Origin: Klenkia terrae | GTDB taxonomy: Bacteria; Actinomycetota; Actinomycetes; Mycobacteriales; Geodermatophilaceae | Assembly (NCBI RefSeq): GCF_900491935.1 | Contig: NZ_UEXK01000004.1 | Coordinates: 2,260,203-2,312,774 of the forward strand | Direction of reading: 5' to 3' | Length of the DNA: 52,572 nt | Notes under the pieces: model-generated | The model's input: only the letters and a program-made list of their open reading frames with translations | Databases searched by the model: none | What the model was told of the DNA's origin: nothing | Program-made: the position numbers and the translations under genes | Shown: piece by piece, positions 31,654-43,075 of the stretch | Layout: every line of letters begins with the position of its first letter | How positions within the stretch are numbered: the first letter of the stretch is position 1

Positions 31654-32208
31654 TCACCCCCCGGGGCGTCCGGCCAGCTCCGCGACCCGGGTGACCGTCG
31701 TCCAGTTGCGACCGGTGCCCGGCGCGCCGAGCAGGCGGTCCCACCGCCAGCTGCCGACCGGGGTGTCCAGGACGCCGTCGGGGAGCCACAGGTGCAGGTC
31801 GCGTCCCCGCAGCGCCCAGGCGCCCTCCCCGGGCCCGGCCACCGGGACCGCGGACACCGCGGCCGGGTCGGGGACGGCGGGCAGGAACGTGACCAGGTAG
31901 CGGGCCGGGTCCAGGTCGGCGCCGTCGGGCAGCGCGACCGGGCCGCTGTCCACGACGGCGGCCACCTCGGCGGCGGACCGGACGGCGACCGCCACGTCGT
32001 GCCCGAAGTCGGCCTGGATGCAGGCGTGCACGTCGGCGGCCAGCCCGTCCTCGACGAGGTCGGTGGTCAGCACGACGTTGCCGCTCTGCAGGTGCGTGGC
32101 GACGTCGGTGTACCCGCGGGCGGTGAGCGCCTCCCGCAGCGGGCCCATGCCGATCCGCTTGGCCCGGCCGACGTTGATGCCGCGGAGCAGGACGACGGAT
32201 CGGGCCAC
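31654..32208 (-). CDS. DUF1697 domain protein
   Basis: 184 aa from GTG 32208. The N-terminal VVLLRGINVGRAKRIGMGPLREALTARGYTDVATHLQSGNVVL is the diagnostic DUF1697 motif, followed by VRSAAEVAAVV and a C-terminal GAPGTGRNWTTVTRVAEL. The function of this family is unknown. TACCTT lies 7 nt upstream of the start. It is divergent from the reverse transcriptase gene; the 220 bp between the two starts has no other canonical gene. Confidence 0.86.
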   Translation of the reverse strand: MARSVVLLRGINVGRAKRIGMGPLREALTARGYTDVATHLQSGNVVLTTDLVEDGLAADVHACIQADFGHDVAVAVRSAAEVAAVVDSGPVALPDGADLDPARYLVTFLPAVPDPAAVSAVPVAGPGEGAWALRGRDLHLWLPDGVLDTPVGSWRWDRLLGAPGTGRNWTTVTRVAELAGRPGG

Positions 32209-32215
32209 GCCGCAG

Positions 32216-32221
32216 AAGGTA
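32216..32221 (-). promoter_or_regulatory. -10 box of the DUF1697 gene
   Basis: TACCTT on the reverse strand, 7 nt before GTG 32208; leaderless pattern. Confidence 0.5.
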
Positions 32222-32428
32222 GAGCCCGGCGGACGGGTCTGGGAAGGTGGCCGGCATGCGGTGGCGCGGGCTCGAGGACGCCGTGCCGCAGGTCGGGCCG
32301 GCAGCTCCGGGGATGCCCCGGGGACCGCACGCAGCCTCCACCACCACGCCTCCGGCGCGACGCAGCGCTCCGCGCAGCTCAGCGTCGGGACGACGGGACC
32401 GGTCGACCCGCGCCACCGCACGATCCAC
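32222..32428 (+). other. Candidate msr-msd (retron ncRNA) region upstream of the RT
   Basis: About 207 bp just ahead of the reverse transcriptase, where retrons place their structured RNA. Stems visible on the + strand are GAGCCCG (32222-32228) with CGGGCTC (32267-32273); CCGGGG (32307-32312) with CCCCGG (32316-32321); CGACGC with GCGTCG flanking 32370-32390; and possible long-range CGGGTC (32234-32239) with GACCCG (32405-32410). None is long enough to prove an msd stem. A 61-codon ORF (32247-32432) has odd composition and is probably not coding. Confidence 0.3.
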
Positions 32429-33802
32429 GTGAAACCACCCGGCACCCGCACCGCCCGCGCGCTGGCCGCCGCGTTCCTGGGCTCCCCGGAGTGGTCCGCG
32501 CCGGCGCTGGTCGAGCAGGGCCGGGTGGTGCTGGACCCGGCGCCGGACTGGCTGCCCGCCGTGGCGGCCGCCGCGGTCGCGGCCCACCGGGAGCCGCCGC
32601 GGGACGCTCCGCGGGAGCTGGCCGGGTTCCTCCTCGGCGTGCGGGAGGAGTTGCTCGACGCCCGGCCCCGGCTCGACGACGACGGCGAGCCGCTGCCCCG
32701 TCCCGCCGAGCCCCGGGTGCGGGCCTGGTTGCCGACCACCCCCCGGATGGGTCGCGCCCGCTGGCCGGTGCACCCGCTGCACGACCTGGCCGACGTCGCC
32801 GAGATGCTGGGCACCGACCTCGACCACCTCTCCTGGTACGCCGACCCGCAGGGTCGCCAGCGCACCGAGCCGGCCGGTCACCTGCAGCTCTACCGCCGCC
32901 GGTGGCTGCCCCGCCCGGGCCGGGTGCCCCGCCTGCTGGAGGTGCCGACCCCGCGGCTGCGCGCGGTGCAGCGGGTGCTGCTGGACCGGGTGCTCGCCCC
33001 GATCCCGCCGCACCCCGCCGCGCACGGGTTCGTCGCCGGCCGCTCCGCCCTGACCGGGGCGCGGCAGCACGTGGGTGCCGAGGAGCTGCTCACCCTGGAC
33101 CTGGCGGCGTTCTTCGCCACGGTCCGCGCCGGCCGGGTGTGGGCGACGCTGCGCTCGGCCGGCTACCCCGAGCCGGTGGCCTCCCTGCTGACCGGGCTGT
33201 GCACCACCTCGGCCACCCGGGACGACCTGGCGACCATGCCGCCGGGCGGCAGCGAGGGCGCCCGTGCCCACGTCCGGGCCGCGCTGGCCACCCCGCACCT
33301 GCCGCAGGGGGCGCCGACGTCCCCGCAGCTGGCCAACCTGGCCGCCCACCGGCTGGACCGGCGGCTGGCCGGGCTGGCCGCGGCGGCGGGCGCGGTCTAC
33401 ACCCGCTACGCCGACGACCTGACCTTCTCCGGCCGGCGCGGCACCGCCGCGCTGCGGCACCGGGTGGCGGTCGTCGTCGCCGACGAGGGGTTCGCGCTGC
33501 AGCCGGCCAAGACCCGGGTGCGCGGGCGCGGCGCCCGCCAGGCGGTCACCGGCGTCGTGGTCAACGAGCGCCCCTCGCTGCCCCGCGCCGAGCTCGACGC
33601 GCTCCGGGCCCGGCTGACCAACGCCGTCCGCCGCGGCCCGTCGGCGGCCGACCTCGCGGCGGTGGACGGCGACCGGCAGGCCCTGCGCCGGGAGCTGGCC
33701 GGCCGGGGGGCCTGGGTGACCCAGGTGCACCCCGTCCGCGGGGAGCGCCTGGCCGCCCTGCTGGCCGCCGTCGACTTCGCGGAGCCCGACACGGACCTGT
33801 GA
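32429..33802 (+). CDS. Retron-type reverse transcriptase
   Basis: 457 aa from GTG 32429. An N-terminal extension of about 140 residues includes LADVAEMLGTDLDHLSWYAD. Then come RT motifs: VPTPRLRAVQRVLLDRVLAPIPPHPAAHGFVAGRS, LTGARQH (208-214, the NAxxH position of retron RTs, with Gly for Asn), motif A LDLAAFFATV (Asp224), LPQGAPTSPQLANL (291-304), catalytic YTRYADDLTFSG (YADD at 327-330), and QAVTGVVVN (VTG at 373-375, retron region Y). The order and the AAHGFxxGRSxLTxAxxHVGA block resemble myxobacterial retron RTs such as that of Mx162. Catalytic residues are intact. No known retron effector lies in the same operon. Confidence 0.88.
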   Translation: MKPPGTRTARALAAAFLGSPEWSAPALVEQGRVVLDPAPDWLPAVAAAAVAAHREPPRDAPRELAGFLLGVREELLDARPRLDDDGEPLPRPAEPRVRAWLPTTPRMGRARWPVHPLHDLADVAEMLGTDLDHLSWYADPQGRQRTEPAGHLQLYRRRWLPRPGRVPRLLEVPTPRLRAVQRVLLDRVLAPIPPHPAAHGFVAGRSALTGARQHVGAEELLTLDLAAFFATVRAGRVWATLRSAGYPEPVASLLTGLCTTSATRDDLATMPPGGSEGARAHVRAALATPHLPQGAPTSPQLANLAAHRLDRRLAGLAAAAGAVYTRYADDLTFSGRRGTAALRHRVAVVVADEGFALQPAKTRVRGRGARQAVTGVVVNERPSLPRAELDALRARLTNAVRRGPSAADLAAVDGDRQALRRELAGRGAWVTQVHPVRGERLAALLAAVDFAEPDTDL

Positions 33803-33840
33803 CCTGGCTGTGACGCGGACCCGTCAGTCTCGGCACCGTC

Positions 33841-33882: not shown

Positions 33883-35283
33883 ATGGCGACGACGAAGGCG
33901 ACCAAGGGCACGGGACGGCGGGACCCGGGCGACCCGGACGCGATGCCGCCGTGGGGCGTGGCGGTGCCGCTGGGCCTGCAGCACGTGCTGGCCATGTTCA
34001 CCTCGAACCTGACCCCGGCGATCCTGCTGGCCGGGGGCATCGGCGCGACCACCGGCGAGGCGGTGCTGCTGGTGCAGGCCGCGCTGCTGTGCGCGGGTCT
34101 GGCCACGCTGCTGCAGACCATCGGCATCGGCCCGGTCGGCAGCCGGTTGCCGCTGATGATGGGTTCGGGCTTCGCGTTCATCGCGGTCGCCGTCCCGCTG
34201 GCCGCCGAGCGCGGGCTGGACGCCGTGCTGGGCGGGGTGCTCGTCACCGCGCTGGTCCAGGTGGCGATCGGGCTGGGCATCCACAAGATCGCGTTCCTGT
34301 TCCCGCCGGTGGTGACCGGGACGATCATCCTGGTGATCGGCCTGGGGCTGCTGCCCAGCGGGATCAACCTGGCCGCCGGCGGGGTCGGCCGCGAGGGCTT
34401 CGGGTCCTGGACGAACTTCGGGGTCGCCGGGCTGGTGCTCGTGCTGACCGTGGTGCTCAACCAGTTCGCCCGCGGGCTGGCCAAGGCCGCGTCGGTGCTC
34501 ATCGCCGTCGTCGTGGGCTACCTGGTGGCCATCCCGGCCGGCCTGCTGGACCTGTCGGGCGTCGGTGACCGGCCGGTGCTGGCCTTCCCGTCGCCGTTCG
34601 CGTTCGGCGTCTCGTTCGAGGTGGTGGCCATCGCGTCGATGGCGATCGTCGGCGTGGTGAACATGGTCGACTCGGTGGGCACGGTGCACGCGGTCACCGA
34701 GGGCGGCGCGGGTCGGCCGGCCACCCGGCGCGAGCTGCGCGGCGGCATCCTGGCCGAGGGCGGGTCCGCCGTCCTGGGCGGGGTGTTCGGGGCGCTGCCG
34801 ACCACGATGTTCAGCCAGAACATCGGCCTGGTCGCGCTCACCAAGCAGATGAGCCGGCACGTGGTGACCATCGGCGCCTGCGTGCTGGTCGGCCTGGCGC
34901 TGCTGCCCCAGCTGGCCGCGGTGCTCGCCGCCGTCCCGCCGGCGGTGCTCGGCGGCGGTGTGCTGGTGCTGTTCGGGATGGTCTGCGCGATCGGCATCGA
35001 GCTGCTGAGCAAGGACGGCCTGGACACCCGCGCGCTGCTCATCGTGGCCATGTCGGTCGCCCTGGGCCGGGGCATCGCGGCCGCCCCGGACGCGATCGCC
35101 GGCATCGCGGGGGAGTGGGGTGCGCTGTTCAGCTCGGGGATCGTGGTCTCCGCGGTGGTGGCCATCGTGCTCAACCTGGTGCTGCCCGGGCGCCCGGTGC
35201 CCGCGCCCGAGGTGCCGTCCCCGGCCGAGCCCTTCGTCGAGGCGGCCGTCGAGGAGCGCGCCGAGGAGCGCACCGAGCGCTGA
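33883..35283 (+). CDS. NCS2-family nucleobase (xanthine/uracil) permease
   Basis: 466 aa with 12-14 hydrophobic segments. The NCS2 signature QNIGLVALTKQMSRH lies about residue 308, and GSGFAFIAVAV and FPPVVTGTIILVIGLGLLPSGI are also family-typical. Proton-coupled uptake of purine or pyrimidine bases is known for the family. The SRH ending of the signature is more usual in xanthine/urate transporters than in uracil transporters. The C-terminal tail is acidic (EEAxEERAEERTER). ATG 33883 has GGGGGAGC upstream at proper spacing. The DNA is typical of the region. Confidence 0.9.
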   Translation: MATTKATKGTGRRDPGDPDAMPPWGVAVPLGLQHVLAMFTSNLTPAILLAGGIGATTGEAVLLVQAALLCAGLATLLQTIGIGPVGSRLPLMMGSGFAFIAVAVPLAAERGLDAVLGGVLVTALVQVAIGLGIHKIAFLFPPVVTGTIILVIGLGLLPSGINLAAGGVGREGFGSWTNFGVAGLVLVLTVVLNQFARGLAKAASVLIAVVVGYLVAIPAGLLDLSGVGDRPVLAFPSPFAFGVSFEVVAIASMAIVGVVNMVDSVGTVHAVTEGGAGRPATRRELRGGILAEGGSAVLGGVFGALPTTMFSQNIGLVALTKQMSRHVVTIGACVLVGLALLPQLAAVLAAVPPAVLGGGVLVLFGMVCAIGIELLSKDGLDTRALLIVAMSVALGRGIAAAPDAIAGIAGEWGALFSSGIVVSAVVAIVLNLVLPGRPVPAPEVPSPAEPFVEAAVEERAEERTER

Positions 35284-40187: not shown

Positions 40188-40949
40188 TCAGCCGCCGACG
40201 AAGACCGGGTCCCAGACGCCGCTGAGCACGCTCGCGGTGACGGCGACCGCGCACACCGCCACCGTGCCGACGACGAACCAGGCATCCCGGGCGTGCAGCA
40301 CCGACCCGCGGGCGTTCGTGCGGGTCACCCCGGAGTCGAACCCGCGGGCGTCCATCGCCGTGGCCAGCCGCCCGGCCCGCCGGACGGCGCCGACCAGCAG
40401 CGTGAAGCCGATCCCGGCGACCAGCCGGACCCGGGCGACCGGGTTGCGGCCGGCCTCGACCCCGCGGGTCCGTCGGGCCAGCCGCACCGACTCGAACTCG
40501 GCGACCAGCAGCGGCACGAGACGCAGCGCGGCCAGCGCCCCGACGGCGAACCGGGCCGGGAACCGCCAGTGCACGGTGAGCGCGTCGGCCAGCCGCACCG
40601 GGTCGGTCGACGCCACCAGGAACACCCCGGGCAGCGCCAAGCCGACCACCCGCAGCGCCAGGCCGAGCGCGTACACCGCGCCGGACTCGCCCAGCAGCAG
40701 GTTCACCAGTCCGACCGTGCCCGCGCCGATCAGCAGCGGCCACGTCCGCAGCCACAGCGTCCGCGGGTTCGTCAGCCCGGCGGCGGGCAGCAGGCACAGC
40801 TCGGCGAGCACCACCACCGACGGGGTGACGACGTCCAGGCTGGTCAGCAGCACCACGGTGACCACGGCGATCGCGGTCAGCTGGGCGACCGGGTTGACCC
40901 GGGACAGCGGCACGTCCGGCGCGGGCCCCAGGGCCAGGGACGCCGTCAC
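40188..40949 (-). CDS. ykoC: ECF transporter T component (YkoC-like)
   Basis: 253 aa, 5-6 transmembrane segments. EcfT coupling motifs are SVRLARRTRGVEAG (ArRtRG) and TAMDARGFDSG, which contact the ATPases. GTG 40949 overlaps the ykoD stop (GTGA). With the YkoD ATPase and YkoE substrate-binding component it forms an energy-coupling-factor importer. The TPP riboswitch ahead of the operon indicates import of thiamine or its hydroxymethylpyrimidine precursor, as proposed for the Bacillus subtilis ykoFEDC operon. Confidence 0.87.
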   Translation of the reverse strand: MTASLALGPAPDVPLSRVNPVAQLTAIAVVTVVLLTSLDVVTPSVVVLAELCLLPAAGLTNPRTLWLRTWPLLIGAGTVGLVNLLLGESGAVYALGLALRVVGLALPGVFLVASTDPVRLADALTVHWRFPARFAVGALAALRLVPLLVAEFESVRLARRTRGVEAGRNPVARVRLVAGIGFTLLVGAVRRAGRLATAMDARGFDSGVTRTNARGSVLHARDAWFVVGTVAVCAVAVTASVLSGVWDPVFVGG

Positions 40950-42229
40950 GACAACCGCTCCTCGGCGTCGGCCAGGACGTCGACCAGGTCCCGGTCGTGG
41001 GTGACCACGCAGACCGCGCAGCCGGCGGCGCGCTGCTCGGCGAGCAGGGTGACCAGTTCGCGCCAGGTGGCGGCGTCCTGGCCGAAGGTGGGCTCGTCGA
41101 GCACCAACGCCTGCGGGGACGTCGCCAGCGCGGTGGCCACCGACAGCCGGCGCTGCTGGCCGCCGGACAGCGTGAACGGGTTGGCGTCGGCGAACGGGGT
41201 CAGACCGAGGCGCTCGAGCAGCTCCTCAGCCCGTACTCGCGCGGCGTTGGACCCGGAGCCCGAGCGCAGCGGACCCAGCTCCAGCTCGTCGCGCAGCCGG
41301 CCGGTGAGGAACTGGTGCTCGGGCTGCTGGAAGACCGTGCCGATCCGGGTGACCAGCTCCCCGGCCCGCCAGCGGTAGGGCTCCCGCACCCCGCGGGCGG
41401 CGAGCTCCTCGGCCGCGCGCACCCGGCCGGTCGTGGGTGCCCGCAGCCCGGCCAGCAGCAGGGCCAGCGTGGACTTGCCGGTGCCGTTCGCGCCGGTCAG
41501 CGCGGTGACCGAGGCGCCCGGGAGGGCCATGTCGGTCGGCGGCAGGGCGGGTGTCGTCGTCCCCCGGTAGGTGAAGCCGGCGGCCTCGGCGACGACCCGG
41601 GGGGCGCCGGACCCGGGAGCCACCGGCAGCACCAGACCTGCCGTCCGCAGCTGCGGCGTCCAGTCCGGGCCGTGCGCGACCAGCCCGCCGTCGACGACCT
41701 CGACCACCCGGTCCACCAGCGGCAGCCAGGGCGCGGCGTCGTGGTCGACGACCAGCAGCGTCGTCGACCGGTCGGCGACCGCGCGGGCCACCGCCTCCCG
41801 GACGACGTCCGAGCCTGCCGGGTCCAGCTGGGCGGTCGGCTCGTCCAGCAGCAGCAACCCGGGTCGGCGGGCCAGCGCCCCGGCCAGCACCAGCCGCTGC
41901 TTCTCCCCGCCGGACAGCGCCTGGGTGGCCCGGTCCCGGGCGTAGCGCCAGCCGACGGCGGCCAGCGCGTCGTCCACCCGTGGCCAGATCTGCTCGCGCG
42001 GCAGGCCGGCGTTCTCCAGTCCGAAGGCGACGTCGTCCCCGGCGCGGGTCATCACCAGCTGGCTGTCCGGGTCCTGCAGCAGCAGGCCCAGCCGGTCGCG
42101 GGCCTCGGCGGGGGAGCGGCCGTCCACGGTCAGCTCGCCGGTGACCTCGGCGGCCTCGGGATCCAGCAGCCCGGCCAGGACCGCGAACAGCGTGGACTTG
42201 CCCGCGCCCGACCGGCCGGTGACCAGCAC
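40946..42229 (-). CDS. ykoD: ECF transporter double ATPase (YkoD-like); start codon not canonical
   Basis: At least 427 aa with two ABC domains. Domain 1 has GRSGAGKST, LSGGEKQR and LLLLDEPTAQLD; domain 2 has GANGTGKST, LSGGQQRR and LVLDEPTFGQD. Both appear active. GTG 42229 is the first ATG/GTG/TTG in the frame, but it lies only eight residues before the Walker A lysine and would delete the first strands. The open frame continues upstream to about 42341 and encodes homologous sequence (AVRARGLAVRHASRLASALTDVDLDVAPGERV). The real start is therefore non-canonical, or the gene is expressed by frameshift from ykoE, or there is a sequence error. Confidence 0.85.
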   Translation of the reverse strand: MLVTGRSGAGKSTLFAVLAGLLDPEAAEVTGELTVDGRSPAEARDRLGLLLQDPDSQLVMTRAGDDVAFGLENAGLPREQIWPRVDDALAAVGWRYARDRATQALSGGEKQRLVLAGALARRPGLLLLDEPTAQLDPAGSDVVREAVARAVADRSTTLLVVDHDAAPWLPLVDRVVEVVDGGLVAHGPDWTPQLRTAGLVLPVAPGSGAPRVVAEAAGFTYRGTTTPALPPTDMALPGASVTALTGANGTGKSTLALLLAGLRAPTTGRVRAAEELAARGVREPYRWRAGELVTRIGTVFQQPEHQFLTGRLRDELELGPLRSGSGSNAARVRAEELLERLGLTPFADANPFTLSGGQQRRLSVATALATSPQALVLDEPTFGQDAATWRELVTLLAEQRAAGCAVCVVTHDRDLVDVLADAEERLS

Positions 42230-42338: not shown

Positions 42339-42956
42339 CTAGACGCGGCTGCGCCCGGAGGCGAAGGAGCTCAGCGCGCCGGTGCGGGCCAGGGCCTTCA
42401 CCAGCAGCAGCCCGACCACACCGGCCAGCAGCACGCTGCTGATCACGGTGAAGACGGTGTAGGGCACCTTGTAGGCCCAGAAGCCCAGGTCGGCGTAGTA
42501 GACGGTGTTGTCCAGGATCGACGTGGACAGCCCGGCGGTGACCCCGGCGAGCACGGCGGTGCCCCAGCCGAAGGACCGGTACCGGGTCAGCAGGAAGCCG
42601 ATCTCGCCGCCCAGGCCCTGGATCAAGCCGTAGACGATGATGATGCCGCCGTAGGGCGAGCCCAGCAGCAGGCTGACCGCGGCGGCGAGCCCGGAGGCGA
42701 AGATCGCGGCGCCGGGCTTGCGGACCAGCAGGCCGGCGACCACCCCGGGCATCAGGTAGACGCCGTTGAGCACCGCGGCCAGCGGCGGGAAGAAGTCCAG
42801 CGGCGCGGCCAGCACGCCGAAGACCAGGTTCCAGGCCCAGAAGACGACGCCGAACGCGACGCCCAGGACGGCGGTCGTGACGATGTCGACGGTGCGCCAG
42901 GAACGGCGCGGCGCCTGCCCGGTGGCAGCGGTCGGACGGGTGACCTCAGCGGTCAT
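42339..42956 (-). CDS. ykoE: ECF transporter substrate-binding (S) component, YkoE family
   Basis: 205 aa from ATG 42956. Five to six transmembrane segments with the YkoE pattern: VDIVTTAVLGVAFGVVFWAWNLVFG, VYLMPGVVAGLLVRKPGAAIFASGLAAAVSLLLGSPYG, IQGLGGEIGFLLTRYR, ILDNTVYYADLGFW. It binds the substrate of the ECF importer. The TPP riboswitch ends 13 bp before the start, and the GGAGAG ribosome site lies between, so TPP binding probably blocks translation initiation of the whole operon. Confidence 0.9.
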   Translation of the reverse strand: MTAEVTRPTAATGQAPRRSWRTVDIVTTAVLGVAFGVVFWAWNLVFGVLAAPLDFFPPLAAVLNGVYLMPGVVAGLLVRKPGAAIFASGLAAAVSLLLGSPYGGIIIVYGLIQGLGGEIGFLLTRYRSFGWGTAVLAGVTAGLSTSILDNTVYYADLGFWAYKVPYTVFTVISSVLLAGVVGLLLVKALARTGALSSFASGRSRV

Positions 42957-42969
42957 GGTGCTCTCTCCA

Positions 42970-43053
42970 GACTCCCTACGCCGGCATGACCCGGTTCAGG
43001 TTCGAGGGTCTGCGGTTGCCCGCACTCTCAGCGCCTCGTGGCGCTCCCCTGTC
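42970..43053 (-). promoter_or_regulatory. TPP (thi-box) riboswitch
   Basis: On the reverse strand the aptamer shows CAGGGGAGCG, GCGCTGAGAGTGCGG, CAGACCCTCGAACCTGA, and ATGCCGGCGTAGGGAGT in order, with the CTGAGA, GAACCTGA and CGTAGGGA landmarks of thiamine pyrophosphate riboswitches. It directly precedes ykoE and its ribosome site. Confidence 0.93.
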
Positions 43054-43075
43054 GGTGTGTTCTGTTGTGCCGGGG

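Follow-up and report, generated by a model that had tools for sequence, protein, structure and literature searches.

The retron locus and its reverse transcriptase

The window, i.e., the whole stretch of 52,572 nucleotides of Klenkia terrae DNA that was analysed, carries a gene for a retron-type reverse transcriptase (RT) flanked by a divergent gene for a DUF1697 protein (31654-32208) and by a gene for an NCS2-type permease (33883-35283); the features of the locus are collected in Table 1. The RT frame is open from its GTG codon to the stop codon at 33800-33802, and the protein contains Asp224, the YADD motif at residues 327-330, VTG at 373-375 and, at 209-214, the sequence TGARQH, a variant of the NAXXH motif. 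A first-pass annotation, made from the letters of the DNA, had placed all these motifs at the same residues and had called the protein an intact, retron-type RT, and on these points it was right. In an alignment of 36 RTs (that of the window and 35 relatives) D224, H214 and YADD are invariant; VTG is less constant, many relatives having LAG, LTG or a comparable triplet in its place, and the first position (N) of NAXXH is variable too. In the window region X reads GARQH, with A and H kept; judged by YADD, NAXXH in region X and VTG in region Y, the protein is a retron RT in which the N of region X is replaced. PMC6868368 describes NAXXH variants, e.g., in Mx65, and PMC4244168 also contains variants of this type.

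The Pfam model RVT_1 matches this RT with 59.4 bits, its single match in the genome. Of the PADLOC models, RT_other (489.5 bits) and RT_outgroup (482.7 bits) match it over nearly its full length, followed by RT_XIII with 275.9 bits. The protein groups with retron RTs and not with those of group II introns; its separation from the RTs of diversity-generating retroelements (DGR) was judged from model matches alone, and no DGR model was found among the family-model matches. The replaced N of region X could be taken to mean that this is no retron at all, but a relic in decay or an RT of group II, DGR or Abi type that has been domesticated. Nevertheless, the retron models score 483-490 bits, far above the group II maturase model TIGR04416 (47.4 bits) and the Drt2 model (27.7 bits, cut-off 390); the frame is intact and its dN/dS lies below 1 (0.37, 0.45 and 0.72 against L003, L002 and L004, respectively); published retrons share the variation in NAXXH, and an msr-msd RNA is present, as described below. 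We consider this reading extremely improbable.

The protein has a stretch of about 110 N-terminal residues that precedes the usual retron region and is seen across the lineage. A PDB profile search with this region (25 sequences, 87 positions) gave nothing significant, with a best E value of 0.5, and no consistent match to Pfam was detected. By sequence, the best solved relatives are Ec86 and other solved retron RTs (E 4.5e-30), with which it has the catalytic and VTG regions in common; it differs from the Ec86-type chain in having approx. 105 more residues before the matched region (query position 163 versus chain position 58). Ec86 works together with an effector.

Table 1. Features of the retron locus, in window coordinates.
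Feature	Position	Strand	Remark
Putative -10-like element GAAGGT (degenerate TANNNT), just 5' of a1	32243..32248	+	predicted
a1 arm of the inverted repeat; the ncRNA starts here	32257..32270	+	perfect 14-nt repeat; compensatory changes in relatives
Inner a1 stem TCGA	32272..32275	+	pairs with TCGA 32403-32406 after one bulged C
Predicted priming (branch) guanosine, in A-G-G	32276	+	first base past the inner stem
msr stem-loop 1	32279..32303	+	helix 2 of the 18-sequence alignment; 8/8 pairs changed on both sides in some sequence
msr stem-loop 2, near-invariant CTCCGGGG/CCCCGGGG hairpin	32305..32323	+	99.3% of cells paired (18 sequences), 99.4% (81)
msd stem-loop	32351..32389	+	helices 4-5 of the 18-sequence and 6-8 of the 81-sequence alignment; double changes
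a2 arm, TCGA + 14-nt repeat	32403..32420	+	copying expected to start opposite 32402
ncRNA extent by covariance model R1	32264..32414	+	111.1 bits; window within the training set
Retron reverse transcriptase	32429..33802	+	457 aa, GTG start, intact ORF
RT N-terminal region, ~110 aa	32429..32758	+	common to the lineage; no known family
Final RT codons (DTDL*)	33788..33802	+	matched in three congeneric genomes at their empty sites; here lies the junction of the unit gained or lost

A structured RNA upstream of the reverse transcriptase

The gap 5' of the RT gene measures 220 nt (32209-32428), and not 207 bp as had been annotated. In it, 32257-32270 and 32407-32420 form a perfect inverted repeat of 14 nt, whose arms lie 136 nt apart and bound an RNA of 164 nt that ends 8 nt 5' of the RT; when this stretch was resampled 1000 times under a first-order Markov model, no resample reached a repeat of this length. 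The first-pass annotation, which had recognised no msr-msd here, overlooked this repeat. The folding energy of the upstream stretch as a single sequence is not unusual when compared with shuffles (z = -0.29); the case for the RNA is a comparative one. Inverted repeats with different letters occur at the corresponding place in many relatives: TGCGGTGGTGGG in L003, GTGCGGTGGCTGA in L006, ACTGCGGGCGA in L009, GTTCCCGGGGGA in Curtobacterium, GTGCGCGGTGGGGCGGGCAG in other Geodermatophilaceae and CCGGATGCTCCAA in an acidobacterium. A simple scan for perfect repeats misses many of the relatives' loci, where the best repeat was elsewhere or absent; therefore, a covariance model is the fairer test.

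The upstream sequences of 18 actinobacterial loci share a consensus fold of 35 pairs, which consists of the a1/a2 stem, a variable hairpin, the near-invariant CTCCGGGG hairpin and a long msd hairpin. In this alignment 92.2% of the cells are paired and 23 pairs show changes on both sides, with a covariation of 0.449 versus 0.144 in shuffled alignments and 0.09-0.12 when the partners were slid. In the inner stem, formed by alignment columns 27-30 with 159-162, the column pair 27/162 is paired in 18/18 sequences and changed on both sides in nine of them. A larger alignment of 81 sequences, obtained from 83 chosen sources of which L060 and L120 fell below threshold, gave 94.8% paired cells, double changes in 31/35 pairs and a covariation of 0.604 versus 0.171, values to be read knowing that this alignment, having been fitted to the model, is biased in its favour. 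The RT is thus directly preceded by a structured ncRNA closed by an a1/a2 stem, as expected of a retron.

At the presumed priming site, the 81 sequences read GA|GG in 23 cases, AG|GA in 18, AA|GC in 10 and CA|GC in 5, and otherwise in the remaining 25; we read AG|GA as what may be the GA|GG motif shifted by one step. The priming motif of retrons is given in PMC6868368 as NAGC, with the examples TAGC, CAGC (Mx162) and GAGC (Mx65). From these motifs and the reading of the site, G32276 is predicted as the likely branch point and 32402 as the likely first copied base. Upstream of the RNA, 79 sequences were compared, i.e., the 81 less L136 and L219, whose model match is truncated. In 62 of them the DNA 5-32 nt 5' of the model match contains a TANNNT element; in a control stretch farther upstream, at 53-80 nt, this holds for 6. 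From this placement, the transcript would be expected to start at about a1. The window and its five closest relatives, from Klenkia and Goekera, have nAGGGT or GAAGGT in place of a consensus TANNNT, and expression is for this reason a prediction in them.

A search of the window with the 4227 families of Rfam gave no match to the upstream RNA at the gathering score, and none within 32200-32440 at E<=1. The single Rfam match in the window is a TPP riboswitch elsewhere (42956-43060, minus strand, 68.3 bits); it is followed by called genes on the same strand at 42339-42956 and 40188-42229 that look like a transport cluster.

Distribution and relatives of the retron

The covariance model built from the 18 actinobacterial sequences (R1) was used for the search across RT homologues that the first-pass annotation had proposed. 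At E<=0.02 it matched 60 of the 72 loci that were fetched by RT similarity, and 46 of these 60 lie outside the training set. The same annotation had named, as the outcome that would speak against a retron, a lack of conserved upstream RNA in homologues together with placement of the RT among group II or DGR enzymes; this outcome did not occur, the DGR part of the comparison again resting on model matches. The R1 matches include loci of Acidobacteriota, Planctomycetota, Verrucomicrobiota, Myxococcota and a Burkholderia, so that the ncRNA accompanies relatives of the window RT in six phyla; it also lies beside two plasmid-borne RTs, in Tsukamurella and Dietzia. The 12 misses are eight type-XIII-like loci, L008, which lacks upstream DNA, L059 and L075, which fall just outside the lineage clade in the tree, and L068, a lineage member that is a true miss. 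All 81 aligned matches are on the RT strand, and 76 of them end within -60..200 nt of the estimated RT start.

Within the bacterial family of the window, R1 matched 37 of 40 loci, the three misses being two other RTs and L122, a lineage member and a true miss. In the family of an Archangium MAG it matched 8 of 18 loci: all eight given lineage members match, as opposed to 0/6 Mx162-/Mx65-like loci and 0/4 other loci. In the 4.8-Mb genome of the window a single match was found, that of the table. Among 108 genomes of the window's family, at least 29 have a match, a lower bound because stricter filters drop weak matches; all 29 are among the 48 of 112 family genomes with an RT match, and no match was detected in those of the 108 that lack an RT. 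An RNA with a conserved fold thus goes with this RT lineage, and in the window it stands before an intact RT.

Some further loci deserve mention. On the Dietzia plasmid pII (L227, 2866-4298) a lineage retron with its ncRNA lies between merA and a transposase. Three family genomes (G073, G100 and G104) have partial RT matches and an ncRNA that still scores well, so the ncRNA may outlive a broken RT, the partial matches being counted regardless of contig ends. G080 and G064 each have a second, distant RT (L150 and L151) that is approx. 39% identical over part of its length and is without this ncRNA.

In a tree of 79 RTs, made with a quick method that gives one support value, the lineage of the window comprises 58 rows (support 98), and the Mx162-/Mx65-like RTs fall in a separate clade of 17 rows (support 97). 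The RTs of Klenkia and Goekera and one RT of genus g8 fall in a clade with one of Kineosporiaceae and with those of Microbacteriaceae and Micrococcaceae (15 rows, support 99); 8 rows from other genera of Geodermatophilaceae lie apart from it (support 100). This split points to horizontal transfer of the lineage RTs.

The first-pass annotation had likened the RT to the myxobacterial Mx162 type. RTs of 485 and 427 residues are taken by us to correspond to Mx162 and Mx65; this assignment goes by RT length, and ATG starts were picked to give those lengths (one of the three 485-aa-type RTs has 484 residues). Two genomes of the Archangium-MAG family, G142 and G154, have a 485-aa-type RT, a 427-aa RT and a third RT of 442-443 residues, which is 41-42% identical to the window RT over nearly its whole length. 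The best PADLOC model is RT_XIII for the 485-aa RT (510 bits) and the 427-aa RT (432 bits), and RT_other for the third (557 bits), as it is for all seven lineage members that were scanned. Mx162 and Mx65 resemble the lineage in having a related RT domain and an N-terminal extension, and they reside beside it in these genomes; however, they match RT_XIII best, are R1-negative, and the type-XIII-like lineages share a neighbour gene. Kinship with this PADLOC type XIII group was rejected for the window RT (RT_XIII 275.9 versus RT_other 489.5 bits, a separate clade in the tree, and no R1 match in the six Mx162-/Mx65-like loci), and the likeness first annotated does not stand.

By its best model matches, the lineage belongs to the PADLOC groups RT_other (PDLC02949) and RT_outgroup (PDLC03740), whose models match the window RT best and near full length, and for which the library offers RT models only. 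In the literature searched, as far as its accessible text goes, neither an ncRNA nor a function is described for this group. Likewise, no description of this RNA or of a lineage without effector was found in the accessible text of that literature, and the novelty of both is provisional. Actinobacterial retrons are mentioned in PMC6868368, and sequences from actinobacteria were among those covered by a survey of bacterial RTs (PMC4244168). The DRT systems, such as DRT2, are alike in combining an RT with an ncRNA, and in DRT2 the RNA serves as the template from which an effector gene arises de novo (PMC12483538); in contrast, the window RT is of the retron type and its RNA has the anatomy of a retron.

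A retron lineage without a conserved neighbour gene

No PADLOC match was found in the DUF1697 or permease neighbour, and no effector fused to or beside the RT, as in the tripartite retron types I-XIII, was detected; the earlier statement that no known effector adjoins the RT is borne out. Shared neighbours were searched among 106 lineage loci, grouped into 26 RT lineages at 60% identity and considering four genes on each side, a span to which an effector encoded elsewhere is invisible. The set leaves out L002 and L003, whose records are those of L115 and L113, and also L008, L059, L070, L077, L081, L150, L151, L183 and L228, and keeps both L004 and L116, which are the same record. The two best clusters occur in 6 of the 26 lineages, at scattered places and on either strand, and one of them looks like ABC transporter ATPases. 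In 21 hand-chosen type-XIII-like loci (11 lineages), which served as a control with the same script, a shared neighbour was found in 9 of the 11. A second set was drawn from 32 loci, with each of the 26 lineages represented once and six loci added, and comprised 112 neighbours, with proteins of 60-1200 residues within two genes and 2.5 kb. Among these neighbours no Pfam family was found in more than three; PADLOC gave matches to 36 families at E<=1e-10, and none of the 25 listed occurs in more than two neighbours. The 'neighbour' of L118 is itself the second fragment of a broken RT and in our reading accounts for most of the RT models among these matches. Within the genes compared, the lineage has no conserved neighbour, and no effector was detected at its locus. 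As a separate observation, eight type-XIII-like loci (L062, L064, L065, L066, L071, L073, L079 and L220) share a gene for a protein of 500-620 residues directly upstream, which is perhaps the partner of these retrons.

The flanking genes themselves could be proposed as effectors, since both adjoin the retron in the five intact loci of the genus that were compared. Nevertheless, in 3/3 RT-less congeners the DUF1697 and permease genes persist next to each other, with the matches 115-120 nt apart instead of 1674, and outside the genus neither the DUF1697 nor the permease cluster was found beside an RT, in a comparison that left uncounted 14 loci without an RT in simple gene calling. We regard an effector role of either gene as most improbable.

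By eye, the empty sites join just 5' of the last RT codons GACACGGACCTGTGA, which these sites nearly share; from these junctions, the unit gained or lost is of approx. 1.55 kb (about 32230-33787) and contains the ncRNA, the RT and little else. Support for a grouping of the three empty sites is weak (80/66), and G079, the most divergent of the genomes, has the retron; its loss within Klenkia is therefore possible. A second comparison of this kind was made in genus g3, where the retron has uvrC on one side and uvrA on the other: with G038 and G024 set against G039, the shared block has its 5' limit about 22 nt before a1, and the 3' limit, readable in G024 alone, is near the RT stop. No clean empty site was found in this genus, and the RT-less genome G025 has other DNA at that place. 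In genus g9, the retron is found on one or the other side of the same 194-aa gene, depending on the species (L130 and L138 versus L131 and L136), as if it had moved within a neighbourhood. In the window, the RT stop overlaps a direct repeat, CTGTGAC-N4-CTGTGAC (33797-33814), which is kept in five occupied and three empty sites and is possibly an operator of the permease gene.

From these results, it is highly probable that the locus is a two-component retron, formed by an msr-msd RNA (approx. 32257-32420) and the RT (32429-33802), as a unit without an effector gene; the simple RT-plus-ncRNA retron, one of the readings offered by the first-pass annotation, is thus supported. A promoter just 5' of a1 would drive the unit. 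By analogy with known retrons, the RT would bind the ncRNA and would prime from the 2'-OH of about G32276, copying from 32402 back through the msd hairpin, and RNase H would trim the template; the product would be a branched complex of msDNA, RNA and RT, with perhaps 60-80 nt of DNA. As to what this complex does, the role that we find the most likely, and advance tentatively, is that of a self-contained unit that would act against phages or sense nucleic acids, with either the msDNA itself or the N-terminal domain of the RT standing in for the effector.

A different possibility is a tripartite retron whose effector lies elsewhere in the genome or farther along the locus, or is a housekeeping protein of the host (e.g., a nuclease) restrained by the msDNA-RT complex. 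According to PMC12548924, retrons typically consist of an RT, an ncRNA and a toxic effector, and retrons with intervening genes exist, having first been seen as lone RTs. The neighbour tests span, as mentioned above, four genes on each side. However, the unit comes and goes alone and is found in unrelated contexts in six phyla, where an effector acting in trans would have to follow it. To our knowledge, the effectors of characterised retrons are adjacent or fused, and a distant effector seems to us rather unlikely.

The two-component retron could also make msDNA and have no part in defence, as a regulatory msDNA or a neutral, selfish retroelement. The neighbours are ordinary genes and none is widely shared, the RT is patchily present (in the 48 of 112 family genomes, several of which show no more than partial matches), and the dN/dS values given above indicate that it evolves fairly fast. 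No link to phage defence appeared in the tests run, in which the neighbours resembled ordinary genes and the viral relatives were distant: of 348 relatives found in viral contigs, the best 80 are 24-35% identical, with matches from residue 87 on, and none of six phage records covers 80% of the query. Carriage by phages was rejected on these results. On the other hand, such turnover is also typical of defence genes, and the catalytic residues, the RNA fold and the linkage of RNA and RT have been kept over long distances. We judge a function outside defence to be possible, and about as doubtful as a distant effector.

Retrons are explained today by an msDNA that restrains a toxic effector, and a lineage with an RT and an msr-msd RNA that extends over six phyla with no linked effector does not fit this account. 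It may represent a widespread autonomous class of two-component retrons, present in at least six phyla and on plasmids, in which the active part would be either the msDNA itself or the N-terminal domain, as an effector or sensor of a new kind; we propose this with a confidence that stays somewhat below even. The unit is small and well bounded, and suits experiments on what msDNA does alone. The work also gives an RNA model for these retrons, which are absent from Rfam, and adds a third kind of retron in myxobacteria beside the Mx162-like and Mx65-like ones. The new pairs of RT and ncRNA come from GC-rich hosts and could serve genome editing.
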